A stretch of DNA of 49,275 nucleotides from Candidatus Woesearchaeota archaeon (GTDB lineage Archaea; Nanobdellota; Nanobdellia; Woesearchaeales; GW2011-AR4): contig JAGVYA010000021.1 in the NCBI GenBank assembly GCA_018303505.1, positions 1 through 49,275 of the forward strand, read 5' to 3'. Below are positions 28,593 through 35,698 of the stretch, piece after piece. The stretch's first letter is position 1; every line of letters starts with the position of its first letter. A program made the translations under genes and the position numbers. The notes below the pieces were generated by a model. That model saw only the letters and a list, made by a program, of their open reading frames with translations, did not search any database and was not told the origin of the DNA.

Positions 28593-28982
28593 TTATTTTA
28601 AAAGAAATACATTCTCCAAATTTTCAAAATGTCTATCACCAGTTACCAGTGTTGCATTGTTCAATAGAGAAGAACAATAAATTAGGCTGTCTATAGTGTG
28701 CAACTTGTGCTTGATTGACAGTTCAACAGCACTATTGCATATCTTTTCATCAATTCCCAGCAACAAACTTCTTGTTTTTATAAATTTTAAAAACTCCTCA
28801 ATTTTAGGCTCTTTAACATTTTTCATTAGTATCTTTCTTTTAATTTCAAAAATAGACAGTACAGAAGTCATTAGCAAGTGCTTGCCCTCTTCTATAAGTT
28901 CCTTGCTTAAATCGTTCTCAGCCAAAAAATAAGATAGCCAAACAGAAGAGTCTAATAAGACGTGCTCACCTATCGCCTTCAT
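28593..28982 (-). CDS. vapC: PIN-domain ribonuclease toxin (VapC)
   Basis: This 129-residue PIN protein has the acidic residues of the active site in VLLDSSVWLSYF (D11), SIFEIKRK (E near 46), HTIDSLIYCSS (D near 98) and TGDRHFENL (D near 116). VapC toxins cleave RNA, commonly tRNA, when not bound by VapB. The start overlaps the antitoxin gene by 17 bases, the usual arrangement. Confidence 0.88.
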   Translation of the reverse strand: MKAIGEHVLLDSSVWLSYFLAENDLSKELIEEGKHLLMTSVLSIFEIKRKILMKNVKEPKIEEFLKFIKTRSLLLGIDEKICNSAVELSIKHKLHTIDSLIYCSSLLNNATLVTGDRHFENLENVFLLK

Positions 28983-29178
28983 CTCTTAGCCCTCTCAAGA
29001 TATTTTTCATGCTTTTTTCTTTTCCCAAAGCGCCGTACATAGATTTTTTGATTCCGCCTTTTAGTATGGCATTTATTACATCGTTATAGCTCTCGGCATT
29101 CAAACTGCTTTTAAATCTCTTCAATAACTCTAACGTTTCATTCTCAATCTGAATTGTAGTTGGCATTTTTGTGTCCAT
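28966..29178 (-). CDS. vapB: VapB-type antitoxin
   Basis: This 70-residue protein has a ribbon-helix-helix-like N-terminus (TTIQIENETLELLKRFKSS, then SYNDVINAILK) and a basic, flexible C-terminal tail (KEKSMKNILRGLRDEGDR) of the kind that wraps VapC. It begins the vapBC operon. An inverted repeat (TATAAG at 29182-29187 and CTTATA at 29196-29201) lies between the TATA-like region and the ATG and is a likely autoregulatory operator. Confidence 0.8.
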   Translation of the reverse strand: MDTKMPTTIQIENETLELLKRFKSSLNAESYNDVINAILKGGIKKSMYGALGKEKSMKNILRGLRDEGDR

Positions 29179-29181
29179 TAC

Positions 29182-29210
29182 TATAAGGCTATAGGCTTAT
29201 ATATAAATTT
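29182..29210. promoter_or_regulatory. vapBC operator and TATA region
   Basis: TATAAG-GCTATAGG-CTTATA is an inverted repeat just upstream of vapB. On the minus strand, an AATTTATATATAAG TATA-like stretch lies beside it at about 29198-29210. The transcript would start close to the ATG at 29178. Confidence 0.5.
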
Positions 29211-29264
29211 TTCTATTACAAAATCTGCTGGTTTTCGTAATTATTTAGCTTTCTGAAGTTAAAA

Positions 29265-29455
29265 TTCAATCCGTCGCTTCGCGACAATATTTTGTGCTCG
29301 GCGTATTTTTTCTGCCATTAAAATACGCCTCGCCAATTTATTCACTAAAAATAATTTTTTTCATTGATTTTAATGTTAGTTCATTGGCGAGGCAAAAATT
29401 CGTGACAGACAATTTTTGCCGAGCACAAGAATTTGTGCCGAAGGCACGGATTGAA
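29265..29455. repeat. cloverleaf-shaped multi-arm palindrome
   Basis: This is a 191-base nested set of perfect inverted repeats. The outer stem is TTCAATCCGT/ACGGATTGAA (29265-29274, 29446-29455). The first small arm is GTCGC-TTC-GCGAC (29273-29285). The inner stem is TTGTGCTCGGC/GCCGAGCACAA (29292-29302, 29418-29428). Inside it lie GGCGTATTTT/AAAATACGCC, CCTCGCCAAT/ATTGGCGAGG and GCAAAAATT/AATTTTTGC. The last small arm is GTGCC-GAA-GGCAC (29435-29447). The arms abut each other with 2-3 shared bases. No gene is present. Confidence 0.85.
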
Positions 29456-29563: not shown

Positions 29564-29911
29564 ATGAGTGCCAGAAATTTTTTAAAACCCTCTATTTCCA
29601 AAATCTTGATTTTTTTATTTATCGGGATTTTATTCCTTTACTTTGCGAATGAATCTGCATGCGGCATTAGTTTCTTTTTTGCATTTTGCTACAAAGCTTA
29701 TGGATTCCCGTTGGCGCACTTGATAACAGGCGACATTGCCAATTCAATGGGCTACATTAAAACCCTGCCTTTCGGGCAATTTTTCTACAAATCCGGAAAT
29801 CTGCTGTTTAATCCTGCAGCTTTGCTGATAGACATTTCCTTGATTTATCTTTTAGCATGCCTTTTAGATTCATTATTTAGGATGCGAATTAAGAAATTTC
29901 ATTCAGAATAA
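29564..29911 (+). CDS. small membrane protein of unknown function
   Basis: This 115-residue protein has a basic N-terminus, a first membrane span (about 13-28), a cysteine-containing hydrophobic region (ACGISFFFAFCYKAYGFP), a short loop, and a C-terminal span (about 82-105) ending in RMRIKKFHSE. I do not recognise the family. The last 13 bases overlap the end of the convergent DUF192 gene. Confidence 0.55.
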   Translation: MSARNFLKPSISKILIFLFIGILFLYFANESACGISFFFAFCYKAYGFPLAHLITGDIANSMGYIKTLPFGQFFYKSGNLLFNPAALLIDISLIYLLACLLDSLFRMRIKKFHSE

Positions 29912-30469: not shown

Positions 30470-30520
30470 GTTGCCAAATCAATAACCTTTAATTCACCGC
30501 AAATACAAAGAGGAGTGATG

Positions 30521-33500
30521 ATGAAAAAAGAGGGTTTAAGTGATTTTTTTAATTCTCAAAATGGCAAAGTAAACATTGTGCTGTTGTTCTCTATAGTTTT
30601 AGTTTTTGTTCTAAGCGTTTATTTTGTTGAAGCATTGACAATAACAATTAATGCACCTGGAAATTTATCTTACGTCGGCGGCAACAATACTAGAAATGTA
30701 AATTTTACATTTACACCGGTTTGGAGTGGTCCTGATGAAAATGCAACCTATAATTGTTCTTTGTATACTAACTCCAGTGGCATATGGGACAGTGTCAGGA
30801 ACTTTACACCAAAAAGTGCTGGCACAAACATATCAAACAATACTCTAAGCTGGGTTAATTTCACTTTTAACAGCGAAGGTAACTTTACTTTCAACATAGG
30901 GTGCTATGCCACAAATTATACATCTTCTGCTGCCCTAAACTTCTCTGGTCTCGGCAATGGAAATGGCAATAGAACATTTTTCATTGATACTTTAGCTCCT
31001 ACAATAACTTTGGACACCCCGAAAGGTGGTGTATTGGCTGATGTTACAGCATACAACATAACTTCTTACGAAACAGCCACATTCTATGTTAATGTTTCCG
31101 ATAACTCTACTCAATTTGTATGGATGGTGCTGAACACCAATGCCACTGTTACTCCTCTAGCTCCTAACCCAGGACTAAATGAAAGTGTTAATCGCACTAT
31201 GACAGGGAACGGAACTGGTATTTCTGCTCTAGACACAAGACAATATTTCTTCAATTTGTCGGGTATAATGAACTTTAATAGCACTTTTACAAGTCCAGGC
31301 CCACATGGTGTAAGTTTCTGCGCAAATGATACGCTTGGCAGGCTCACGTGCACCAATAAGAGTGATTACATCATAAAAGGAATGAATGTAACCCAGATGG
31401 AGAATATGTTTGCTGGAATGCAGCAAGGAATAACTGGATTTGCATTCGGTGGATTGAACATCACTCTTGGAAATGGAACAGAAATACCAGAAAGCACATT
31501 TATGAATCCAATTGATGGAGTTGTAGTTGGTGGCTTAACTCATAAGAACTTTACCTTCATATTTAATTTTTCCAATAAAGCAATTATACACATTGTTGCT
31601 GGCACAATTGACGAAGACCAGTTTGCAAACGCAAGCAACTCAAGAGTTAATAGTACGCCAACTACAGAGGTAAGGCAGCAATTAGGTCGTTACACACCAA
31701 ATATGGCATGGGCTGATATTGCAAGCTTTATACCAAACGAAGTCCGTTACGAGTATGGAATAATACAAATAGGTGGTACAACCTATTCAAAGAAGATGTA
31801 CTGTAATGGCACCTCAATGTCAGCTCCTCAGTGTCATACAATAAGCCAGTGTAATGCAACAGTATTTGGCATACTGAATCATTCTATTGTGATTCCGCCA
31901 AATGATGGATGCTGGCTTGAATCTGGCGTGATTAATACACAAAGCCTAAGTTCAGGCTATACATATATATTTGTTGACAAATTCTCAGGCGCTGTTGGCG
32001 GAGAGGACCGTGGACCGCCAAATGCAACATTTATTTCACCTGCTGCAAGTGAGGCAAATCATAGACTTAATAGGTCAACCACAGTAACCCAATTAATAAA
32101 CTTTACAGTTGACGACACTGATAGTACAGGGCTTAACTTAAGCGCTAATTCTTCGATAAATGTTACAATTACCCTTGGCGGAAGTCAAGTGGCGCTGTTC
32201 AGTTATCTAAACAACGCTTCAACAAACTTAACCTGCACATCTGCAGATACAGTTTCTCCGCAGAACACAACCAGAATAACCTGTAATGTTACATACGGAT
32301 TTAATTCAAATGGAACATATTTAATAAACGTTACTGGCAGAGACGCAAGCAATAACAGCAACGCTATGAATACATCATCTAATTATGTATATTTCACAGT
32401 CGATCAAATACCTCCTATTTTTATCTATTATAACTTTACAAATTCAAGCAATTTTAATACAACTGGTACTGATGCAACTGCTTCGTTTGAATTAGGAACA
32501 ACTGCAGGCACTTCAAGAGCACAAGGAGATGCTAATACTGGAAGAATTTTTGCAGTTGCTAATTGGACAGACAACCTGACAGATGCAAGATATGGAATGC
32601 TGCAATTCTATAACACTTCTAAAGCAGCAGGGCAAGAATGGCGGACTTTGAATACAACAGCGGTAAATGGAAGCGGTCTCCAATTTAGAAGTGGCGGATG
32701 GACAAACTTCTCATTCCCCATCCCCAAAGGCCATAATAATTTTGAAGGCAAGAACGTAAGCTTCAGGATTATTGCCAATGATACTTTAGGCAATGTTAAT
32801 AATTCCGATTTAGTTAAGAACTTTACAATACAAATTAATGATACAACTGTGCCTGCTACAACTATTAATGGGACTATCTCAACAAATAACACAAATACAA
32901 CAAATACAAGACCTCTTGTAAGTTGGTTTATAAATGACAATAATAAACTAACAAGTATAAATGTAAGTGTTGATGATACTGTAGCTCCTGGCACAGGAGT
33001 AGAAAGTAATTGCCAAAAATATGCATTCTTTGACACAACTGCTGGTGCTAATAATGTAGAAAAATTCAGAAATTCATCATTCCAAATTTTAGATGATTCA
33101 GCATGCACCTTAGCAAATGGTACACACTTCATAAGGATAATAGCAATTGATTCATGGAGTAATTCCGAGACAGTTTTCCATAACTTCACAGTACAAAGCG
33201 GAAGCACGCCAGAACTTACATTAACAGTATTGCAAAACGGCTTATCTGCAATAAACCAGTCTAATGTAACGCCATACACCGGCATGAACTTTTCAGCAAC
33301 AGTCGGAGCAACAGGCACACTTAAGAACATGAGCTTTACATCAAGCTGCAATTCAACTGTACAAACATTTACAAATAACACAATGATATGGCCATTTAAT
33401 TATTCAGACTGTAAAAGAAGGGAAGCTAACCAGACAGTAACAGTGACTGTATTTGACGCTGCGGGAAATTTCATTACCAATACAACACAATTTTTGGTTG

Positions 33501-35698
33501 ATGATTTAGGACCTTCATTAGCAGTAGATGATCCAACAAATGGATTTAGTGGTCCTAATGAAATAGCTCTTAACTTGTCTGCAAAAGACGGCAATCAGAG
33601 AATTTCATTCTTTGGATACTATTTGGACGACAGACCGATACTAAGATTGAACTTAACAGGAAGCTATGCAGGTGCAGCAGCAAATATCTCTTTATCTAAT
33701 TATACTAACTTTACGCCCGGTACACATAGCATTAAGTTTACAGTTAACGATACTTTAGGCAATTCAAGAAACAGCAGTACCATCACGTTTACTGCAACTG
33801 GACCGATAATATCAGGTGAAATAGGTAATAGTACAAGCGGATACCTAACCAATTTAATGGGTTATCCAGCCAATGTAACTGTTAAATTAAAAACCTCAGA
33901 TGGCAGCTATCAGCAAGTCGATGCAAATGCCACAGACGTAAGCAGCACATTTGAGCTATTACTATACTTAAATGAGACGAGCGCTGACAATCAAATAAAT
34001 GTAACAATAACAGAAATAAATGGCTCTGGAGCTAATTGGGATAAGATAAACTTCTCTGTCTTAATAAATGAATCTAAAGTGCAACTGGATATACAAAATA
34101 ATTGGAGCAATGCTATAAGGCATCTGGTATACTTCAACAGCAGCATTGATGAGTTTTTATCAAACGCTAATGATTACTATGGAATTGTTGTATTGCCAAT
34201 GAATGTAAGCGGTGGCTTGGAGATATGGTGGATAGGCAATGAATCTAATTTAAGCAGAACTAATGTAAGTGCGTGCACTGGCGGCTTTAGCGCAACAACA
34301 ACAACGCCATGCTTTAATTTTACTTCTGGCGGAAAAACAATTGTACAAGTACCTCACTTTAGTATAGTTGTAGTTTCTAACAATTCAAATGCTCCAACAA
34401 TTAATGTAACAACTCCAGATTCAGCAGCAAATCAAAGCATAAGCATGTTTGTGCCTAATATAACAGTTTCGAATGATGCAGTATTGTGCGAATATTCTGT
34501 TAATGGGACAGTGCCAAAAGTAACAATGACAAAGAGCGGAAATATATGTCTTGGCCAAACTGAAAGGTTTAAAAATCTCAATGCGTTAGATGGAAACTAT
34601 AACTTTACATTTAATGTTACCGACTCCTCAAGTAATGTAAACACTTACATATTGAAATTTAATGTTACAGATGGCACAGCGCCAAACACGCCAAACAGCA
34701 CAAGAATATCGGTCAGTGAGAGCAGCACTTCTGCAACAGTAACCATAAGCGGAATGAATGAAAGCGTTAATGCGTCTATAACTGCCTTTTCCGGATCATC
34801 AAATGCAACTAGCACAATTGCAACCCCGCAGCCAGACTTTAACACCACTCAGGCAGTTTTATTCCCCACTTTGACCGCAAGCACAACTTACCATATGAAT
34901 ATTACTATATGCGACTTTGCAGGAAACTGTGCAACAAATAGCACCAATTTGGCCTTCACAACAAGCGCAGCAGCAGCTACTACAACTACAACAACCACAA
35001 CAACAAGTGCAGCAGGTGGTGGCGGAGCAGCACCAACAAGCAATGTAGAAGCATCAGCAGCAAGACAATGGGACAGCATAGCAGCAGGCTCAAGTGGCGT
35101 ATTAGCCATAAATAACGAGAAGATAGCTGTAACAGGAGTCATAATTGATGTGCAGAATACAGTTGCAAATCCTTCAATAACTGTTGAAAGCCTAACCTCA
35201 AACCCATTATCAACTGCAGCAACAGCAGCAAAAGTGTACCAATACTTGCAATTAAGAAAAAGCAATATCGCTGATTCAGACGCATCAAAGATTACAATCA
35301 ACTTTAGAGTGCCAAAATCATGGCTGACAAGCAACAATGTTGCAGAAGACAACATTGTGCTGTACAGATACAGCGATAATAAATGGAATTCATTGCCAAC
35401 AACAAAGACAGGAGCAGATGCAAATAATGCATTATACCAATCAATAACACCTGGATTTAGCACTTTCGCTATAGGGACAACAGAGGCTGCTCCAGCTGCA
35501 CCAATCCCAGAGGCGCCGCCAGAAGAAGTGCCAGCAGAGGTGCCAGCAGAAGTTCCAGTAGCTCCAACAGAGGTACCAGCAGCACCAGAAGTCAAGAAGC
35601 CAGCACTAAGCAGAACAGCAATCGCATGGATTGTTGTTGTAATAATTGTAATTGTAGCAGCAGTTGGCTATTACATGTGGCAGAAGAGGAAAGAATAA
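30521..35698 (+). CDS. giant S-layer-like surface protein with PGF-pre-PGF domain
   Basis: The start is taken as the ATG at 30521, five bases after AGAGGAG; GTG 30515 and ATG 30518 are in frame. The protein of about 1,725 residues has a signal/anchor segment near residues 20-40. A long series of Ig-like beta domains follows, with repeated VNDTLGN, DNxxP and FTVxD segments, then a Thr-run linker (about residue 1490). Next is a PGF-pre-PGF domain with WLTSNNVAEDNIVLYRYSD and ITPGFSTFAIG, a Pro/Glu/Ala-rich stalk and a C-terminal membrane span before KRKE. N-x-S/T sequons are extremely dense, fitting the AglB pathway in this window. It is probably the major cell-surface or adhesion protein. Confidence 0.85.
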   Translation: MKKEGLSDFFNSQNGKVNIVLLFSIVLVFVLSVYFVEALTITINAPGNLSYVGGNNTRNVNFTFTPVWSGPDENATYNCSLYTNSSGIWDSVRNFTPKSAGTNISNNTLSWVNFTFNSEGNFTFNIGCYATNYTSSAALNFSGLGNGNGNRTFFIDTLAPTITLDTPKGGVLADVTAYNITSYETATFYVNVSDNSTQFVWMVLNTNATVTPLAPNPGLNESVNRTMTGNGTGISALDTRQYFFNLSGIMNFNSTFTSPGPHGVSFCANDTLGRLTCTNKSDYIIKGMNVTQMENMFAGMQQGITGFAFGGLNITLGNGTEIPESTFMNPIDGVVVGGLTHKNFTFIFNFSNKAIIHIVAGTIDEDQFANASNSRVNSTPTTEVRQQLGRYTPNMAWADIASFIPNEVRYEYGIIQIGGTTYSKKMYCNGTSMSAPQCHTISQCNATVFGILNHSIVIPPNDGCWLESGVINTQSLSSGYTYIFVDKFSGAVGGEDRGPPNATFISPAASEANHRLNRSTTVTQLINFTVDDTDSTGLNLSANSSINVTITLGGSQVALFSYLNNASTNLTCTSADTVSPQNTTRITCNVTYGFNSNGTYLINVTGRDASNNSNAMNTSSNYVYFTVDQIPPIFIYYNFTNSSNFNTTGTDATASFELGTTAGTSRAQGDANTGRIFAVANWTDNLTDARYGMLQFYNTSKAAGQEWRTLNTTAVNGSGLQFRSGGWTNFSFPIPKGHNNFEGKNVSFRIIANDTLGNVNNSDLVKNFTIQINDTTVPATTINGTISTNNTNTTNTRPLVSWFINDNNKLTSINVSVDDTVAPGTGVESNCQKYAFFDTTAGANNVEKFRNSSFQILDDSACTLANGTHFIRIIAIDSWSNSETVFHNFTVQSGSTPELTLTVLQNGLSAINQSNVTPYTGMNFSATVGATGTLKNMSFTSSCNSTVQTFTNNTMIWPFNYSDCKRREANQTVTVTVFDAAGNFITNTTQFLVDDLGPSLAVDDPTNGFSGPNEIALNLSAKDGNQRISFFGYYLDDRPILRLNLTGSYAGAAANISLSNYTNFTPGTHSIKFTVNDTLGNSRNSSTITFTATGPIISGEIGNSTSGYLTNLMGYPANVTVKLKTSDGSYQQVDANATDVSSTFELLLYLNETSADNQINVTITEINGSGANWDKINFSVLINESKVQLDIQNNWSNAIRHLVYFNSSIDEFLSNANDYYGIVVLPMNVSGGLEIWWIGNESNLSRTNVSACTGGFSATTTTPCFNFTSGGKTIVQVPHFSIVVVSNNSNAPTINVTTPDSAANQSISMFVPNITVSNDAVLCEYSVNGTVPKVTMTKSGNICLGQTERFKNLNALDGNYNFTFNVTDSSSNVNTYILKFNVTDGTAPNTPNSTRISVSESSTSATVTISGMNESVNASITAFSGSSNATSTIATPQPDFNTTQAVLFPTLTASTTYHMNITICDFAGNCATNSTNLAFTTSAAAATTTTTTTTTSAAGGGGAAPTSNVEASAARQWDSIAAGSSGVLAINNEKIAVTGVIIDVQNTVANPSITVESLTSNPLSTAATAAKVYQYLQLRKSNIADSDASKITINFRVPKSWLTSNNVAEDNIVLYRYSDNKWNSLPTTKTGADANNALYQSITPGFSTFAIGTTEAAPAAPIPEAPPEEVPAEVPAEVPVAPTEVPAAPEVKKPALSRTAIAWIVVVIIVIVAAVGYYMWQKRKE

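Follow-up and report, generated by a model that had tools for sequence, protein, structure and literature searches.

A modular family of dispersed intergenic palindromes in a lineage of Woesearchaeota

Dispersed intergenic palindromes are already known as a kind of repeat. The ERIC/IRU elements of enterobacteria are located in transcribed spacers. They are short, imperfect intergenic palindromes with strongly variable copy number and presence or absence between strains, and they affect mRNA via RNase E (PMC10969869). BIME, REP and REPIN sequences are mosaic palindromic units that form inverted doublets and adopt hairpin or clover alternatives (PMC3116915). MITEs, such as Sulfolobus SM1–SM4 and the Correia elements, are non-coding, intergenic and multicopy with inverted-repeat ends, and structured 5′-leader RNAs (ribosomal-protein leaders and riboswitches) combine a 5′-leader position with in-situ compensatory change and non-canonical G·A pairs. 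DPANN archaea have small genomes and no easy genetics, and to our knowledge little is known of their non-coding repeats or post-transcriptional control.

We analyzed a cloverleaf palindrome in a 49,275-nt stretch of Candidatus Woesearchaeota archaeon DNA (the window). With a probability of roughly 0.55, we read it as belonging to a modular family of dispersed palindromic repeats that is restricted to one lineage and is an archaeal counterpart of ERIC and BIME, with some copies kept as RNA structure. The likeness to ERIC (intergenic palindromes of variable copy number) is one of description, and no sequence relation to the 126–127-bp ERIC consensus is expected. The present repeat differs in being archaeal, in its unit anatomy and exchangeable left parts, in the near-fixed distance of ~30 nt between the outer end of its right module (R) and start codons and in the tandem G·A pairs conserved in some arms. 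It shares mosaic palindromic units, inverted doublets and hairpin or clover alternatives with BIME/REP/REPIN, but its unit is ~80 nt with two hairpins, whereas REP is ~20 nt, and, unlike for REPINs, RAYT/Y1 was not found in this genome (88% complete). All the MITE properties named above apply; however, no parent IS was found, no target-site duplication was seen, and the copies are highly diverged with stems still paired. The properties of structured leader RNAs recur too, but R precedes many unrelated genes, is variably present in related species and has no Rfam match. What appears new is the family itself, together with its modular build and its spacing to start codons, and the family was not described in the literature found, within a partial coverage of papers.

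The window element and its alternative folds

The initial annotation had described seven perfect stems between 29265 and 29455. All seven were recovered, together with the 2–3 bases common to adjoining stems at each junction, so the stems can never all be full length simultaneously. The element, its two half-units (scored with R1, a model of the unit built from 50 copies) and the neighboring genes are as follows.

29265–29274 with 29446–29455, unstranded: outer stem, 10 bp
29273–29285, unstranded: small hairpin GTCGC-TTC-GCGAC; in other copies the stem sequence changes and pairing is kept
29292–29302 with 29418–29428, unstranded: stem TTGTGCTCGGC and partner GCCGAGCACAA, 11 bp
29300–29309 with 29320–29329, unstranded: arm 1, 10 bp; loop TTCTGCCATT with the conserved CTGCCA
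29327–29337 with 29383–29393, unstranded: middle stem, 11 bp
29391–29400 with 29411–29420, unstranded: arm 3, 10 bp; loop CGTGACAGAC, a diverged TGGCAG
29435–29447, unstranded: small hairpin GTGCC-GAA-GGCAC; in other copies the stem sequence changes and pairing is kept
29265–29346, minus strand: left half-unit, R type, 102.5 bits, with R-type motif TGTGCTCGGC; points at the vapB-like gene
29374–29455, plus strand: right half-unit, R type, 80.1 bits; points at the 115-aa open reading frame (ORF)
28593–28982, minus strand: VapC-like PIN-domain toxin gene (Pfam PIN, E 3e-13)
28966–29178, minus strand: VapB-like antitoxin gene (Pfam VAPB_antitox, E 3.7e-4, under the curated cut-off)
29197–29211, minus strand: TATA-like box AAATTTATATATAAG for the vapB-like gene, on the stretch that separates this gene from the element; identified by eye
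29564–29911, plus strand: 115-aa ORF with no Pfam family

That this fold is not a product of chance, as first proposed, was confirmed by z scores of −8.5 as single-stranded DNA (ssDNA) and −10.4 and −10.6 as RNA of either strand, with 0 of 200 dinucleotide shuffles matching it as ssDNA or as RNA of either strand. The ssDNA energy minimum is the cloverleaf, whereas for RNA an extended hairpin is lowest (−78.9 kcal/mol versus −64.0 for the seven-stem cloverleaf). With the RNA hairpin better by ~15 kcal/mol, the two folds are alternatives.

Each half of the element is a diverged copy of one ~80-nt unit, in opposite orientation to the other half, and the 73-nt arms are 74% complementary. The geometric design that the initial annotation saw in the mirrored small arms and the complementary TTC/GAA loops is present, but it reflects common descent of inverted copies, and loop–loop contact is not needed to explain it. 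CTCGGC within stem TTGTGCTCGGC is near-invariant across copies (alignment A1). The 10-bp terminal inverted repeats of the window copy (TTCAATCCGT/ACGGATTGAA) are degenerate or absent in solitary R copies.

The element lies between divergent genes, both transcribed away from it, at 86 nt from the vapB-like gene and 108 nt from the 115-aa ORF. Because a clear TATA-like box separates the element from the vapB-like gene, the window copy is probably upstream of promoters rather than in an mRNA leader; the 115-aa ORF has weaker AT-rich promoter candidates only. The suggestion of a structured RNA beside vapBC held in part: many family copies lie in mRNA leaders, but the repeat is not specific to vapBC, and no functional link of the window copy to vapBC was found. 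Elsewhere in the window, 30515–35698 encodes a repetitive, secreted-looking 1,727-aa protein with a Thr-rich C terminus and a transmembrane anchor, typical of surface proteins.

Copy number, lineage range and exchangeable modules

A fuller scan with R1 for further copies found 101 half-units in this 1.3-Mb genome. A stricter scan, used across genomes, gave 76 half-units here, matches in 20 of 20 congeneric genomes (1–77 per genome) and in 9 of 16 other genomes of the same family, and none in 23 genomes of the order that belong to other families. One 21-mer from the unit was shared by 24 public contigs, each with Woesearchaeota or Nanoarchaeota in its title, and was absent from IMG/VR; four IMG/VR hits to a looser pattern were dismissed as chance, as they are in GC-rich, apparently coding sequence and do not pass the model. 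The existence of the family, its copy number and its lineage limits are thus directly supported. In Rfam, no family reached the gathering threshold for the repeat, and the only match was RNase P elsewhere on one locus (L054). None of the searches made placed the structure within a known IS or phage.

The typical copy is asymmetric, with a stable right module R and an exchangeable left module (L, X, Y, W or V), and R is also found alone. In gene sense, R reads ATTGAATAAATA-GGCGAGGC-arm (loop TGGCAG)-GCCGAGCAC-AAATWTTG-small hairpin-GGATTGAA, or in detail ATTGAATAAATA-GGCGAG-GC[arm, loop TGGCAG]GC-CGAGCAC-AAATWTTG-[small hairpin]-GGATTGAA. Module L, with ACACTCGGC, is the inverted homolog of R, and joining L to R gives the cloverleaf. 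Among doublets of recognizable halves, 25 of 29 were L–R, 2 of 29 L–L and 2 of 29 R–R, the rare form to which the window copy belongs. Some copies hold other palindromes nested inside their arm loops.

Module X is CGAGAGCGACTTTT...AAAAGTAAACCGCTTTT, with a covarying form X′ (CGAGAGCGTCCTTT...AAGGAGACCAGCTTTT), and module Y is CGTCGCTTCCCAGCATCT...CCCAGCTCAGGACAGT...GCCTGA. Just upstream of R at L005, L006, L190, L192 and other loci, X and X′ covary (ACTTTT/AAAAGT versus TCCTTT/AAGGA) and have the look of a structured RNA repeat in their own right; a K-turn in X was considered and dropped, as the GA does not adjoin the stem. Y also occurs as CGTCGCTTCCCAGCATCT...GGGAGCCCAGCTCAGGACAGT..GCCTGA, a repeated structured motif at L064, L069, L177, L183, L194 and L202, with no Rfam match in the loci scanned. 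Module V (GTTGACG.CGGGAAACTTTTT..AAAAAGTTTCATCAAAAA) is repeated and hairpin-rich (L008, L065, L212, L213, L242 and L256).

Pairing between loops, raised at the outset, found no support: the complementarity goes back to the inverted duplication, and no covariation links the L and R halves within an element. As a kissing-loop candidate, the match between CTGCCA and TGGCAG was likewise set aside, because it comes from the inverted homology of the two halves and solitary R also retains TGGCAG; moreover, the duplex energy of an element's own L and R equaled that of swapped L and R (permutation p 0.25–0.39).

Placement, retention and pairing at genes

Placement was counted for 169 non-redundant halves from sampled loci, using mechanical ORF calls and predicted start codons. 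The outer end of R faced a start codon in 88 cases and a stop in 30. It lay 25–49 nt before the ATG in 52 of the 88 and less than 25 nt from the start in three only, two of which have negative distances and are probably wrong start calls. Conversely, L faced a stop in 24 cases (15 of them at 20–42 nt after it) and a start in 12. Spacing and polarity are direct observations, and, as with ERIC, the copies are intergenic palindromes near stops and starts. Codirectional spacers lacking an element have a median of 18 nt, so the elements occupy lengthened spacers. Most R copies are followed by an A-rich leader without a Shine–Dalgarno sequence; where one is present, the leader tends to be longer. 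Relative to the neighboring gene, a quarter of R copies are antisense, and the genes downstream of R have no common theme. Spurious ORFs run through the repeats, which affects the annotation of these genomes.

Leaders with and without R coexist at orthologous genes within one genus, giving occupied and empty sites at psmA, rpsO and pyrG. At psmA, X–R is present in this genome only, with ordinary gaps in 16 relatives. At rpsO, a TATA-like box and a conserved leader were found in 18 of 18 genes, with R downstream in 13, absent in 3 and replaced by the unrelated module V in 2 of 18 genomes (L242 and L256). At pyrG, a promoter-like region is common to all genes with enough upstream sequence, and 6 of 18 genomes have R in the interval from that region to the start codon. 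As R sits downstream of a conserved TATA-like promoter in both leaders, it should be transcribed there, and we infer transcription of R-bearing spacers from such upstream promoters. For the same reason, the idea that R is itself a promoter (ATTGAATAAATA as TATA) was rejected as a general case.

Several of these loci carry further features. The congeneric rpsO (S15) leader TTGAAAGATAGCTCGGTGAAAGCTTGGCTATGCTGGATGAA...TTCTCCAG, behind the TATA-like box in 18 of 18 (L239–L256) and ~60–200 nt upstream of rpsO, is a candidate leader for S15 autoregulation in archaea; a scan of two rpsO loci (L158 and L226) gave no Rfam match. Upstream of R at rpsM (S13) in two species (L054 and L221), a conserved AGGGTTAGCGAAT..TTCGTTAATTAT is a possible S13 leader. 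One genome bin (G017) has two different pyrG loci (L269 and L278), each with its own R, through contamination or duplication. Downstream of a tRNA-Leu gene, L18e is preceded by L–R in two species and by X with a reduced R in one, and its leader is short and A-rich in most other species. In most congeneric genomes (L105–L123), a tRNA-Leu-like gene lies directly upstream of L18e across a short A-rich gap, which suggests that the two are co-transcribed.

R-bearing downstream genes are common to species pairs beyond chance: 6 are shared between sets of 29 and 17 (p about 7e-7) and, in a second pair, 4 between sets of 29 and 11 (p about 6e-5), assuming about 1,300 genes per genome. Shared ancestry of old copies can explain this sharing. 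At 72–92% protein identity, however, the R motif would hardly be retained in an unconstrained spacer. In several cases, species have different left modules at one and the same gene (gyrB X/X′, dnaK W/V and ribB L/Y). Because it is kept at orthologous genes, a single R is not a mere remnant, unlike in the REPIN comparison.

Pairing was kept as sequences diverged. Across ten orthologous R copies at rpsO, 64 of 78 arm cells and 45 of 45 small-hairpin cells are paired, a level reached by 0 of 2,000 shuffles; these copies have several unrelated arm sequences, which amounts to compensatory change at one orthologous site. Among 196 arms, 54% of the cells at positions 3–9 are paired, compared to 29% with shuffled arms. 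Tandem GA/GA internal loops occur on the gene-sense strand in 32 arms, while TC/TC is not among the commonest loops, and mismatches in well-paired arms comprise 62 G·A plus A·G versus 1 C·T. This sense-strand bias, observed directly as are presence or absence at orthologous leaders and paired stems of altered sequence, indicates that the mRNA-sense strand is the one that folds. G·U pairs are rare (7 of about 770 arm cells versus 4 A·C; 6 versus 9 as isolated mismatches), which is unusual for RNA-level selection and may instead reflect ssDNA folding or replacement of whole palindromes.

These observations bear on whether R was ever mobile. It could be an RNA leader with a cis-regulatory or translational role, encoded purely by the host, in which L, X, Y, W and V are exchangeable upstream modules for sensing or closing. 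The fixed ~30-nt spacing to the ATG, the 88:30 sense bias, the location downstream of the pyrG and rpsO promoters, the retention with paired stems at orthologous genes and the sense-strand G·A pairs would all suit such a leader. Yet R is missing at the same gene in close species, congeneric genomes range from 1 to 77 matches, and antisense copies and downstream genes without a common theme fit poorly, so that we consider a never-mobile origin doubtful.

Origin and retention of the repeat

The proposal of a mobile element was partly upheld, in that the repeat is dispersed and present or absent at orthologous sites, but present-day mobility is unsupported. No target-site duplication was seen by eye in the AT-rich flanks, no consistent transposase partner was found among the Y1, TnpB and DDE_Tnp_1 families, and the closest other copy to the window element has 87% identity over 89 nt, with no recent near-identical copies. 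A MITE or REPIN moved in trans by an IS transposase (for example, an HUH/Y1 enzyme acting on an ssDNA clover), and located as it is only through selection against harmful insertions, would account for the TIR-like TTCAATCCG ends, the two inverted units, presence or absence and the intergenic position. Perfect pairing without wobble and a cloverleaf as the DNA minimum also fit ssDNA recognition, and REPINs have a comparable clover fold (PMC3116915). Against this, Y1 transposase was not found in this genome (88% complete) or in several other R-rich genomes, matches to TnpB-type and DDE_Tnp_1 families do not follow R number, and old, diverged copies lacking a visible target-site duplication are kept at orthologous sites. 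We therefore regard transposition of this kind as a rather improbable full account.

A DNA-level site, whether a cruciform or a replication, chromosome-organization or packaging signal, might be expected of a strong, extrudable palindrome with little wobble. Strand-specific G·A pairs, gene-linked spacing, and gain and loss at individual genes make it very improbable. The replication or packaging site proposed at first is unlikely in particular, because the genes next to the ~100 half-units are unrelated and the viral searches gave no genuine copy.

In the preferred reading of an archaeal ERIC/BIME counterpart, the repeat would have spread long ago by a mobilization or conversion process and would persist only at sites where the stable fold stays clear of the ribosome's footprints at starts and stops. 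The fold would form on the mRNA-sense strand of transcribed spacers and 5′ leaders, and in some leaders the repeat may be kept as an RNA structure that stabilizes, insulates or processes the mRNA. In this reading, ancient mobility, ribosome clearance and an effect on mRNA are inferred.

A bolder and unlikely possibility is that R is a portable translational or mRNA-stability cassette ~30 nt upstream of many starts, with exchangeable upstream modules. If true, ultra-small symbiotic archaea would have a modular system of leaders that spans the genome. With as many as ~100 half-units in a 1.3-Mb genome, a near-constant distance from start codons and exchange between orthologous leaders of related species, the repeat family offers a natural experiment on how mobile palindromes turn into RNA leaders.
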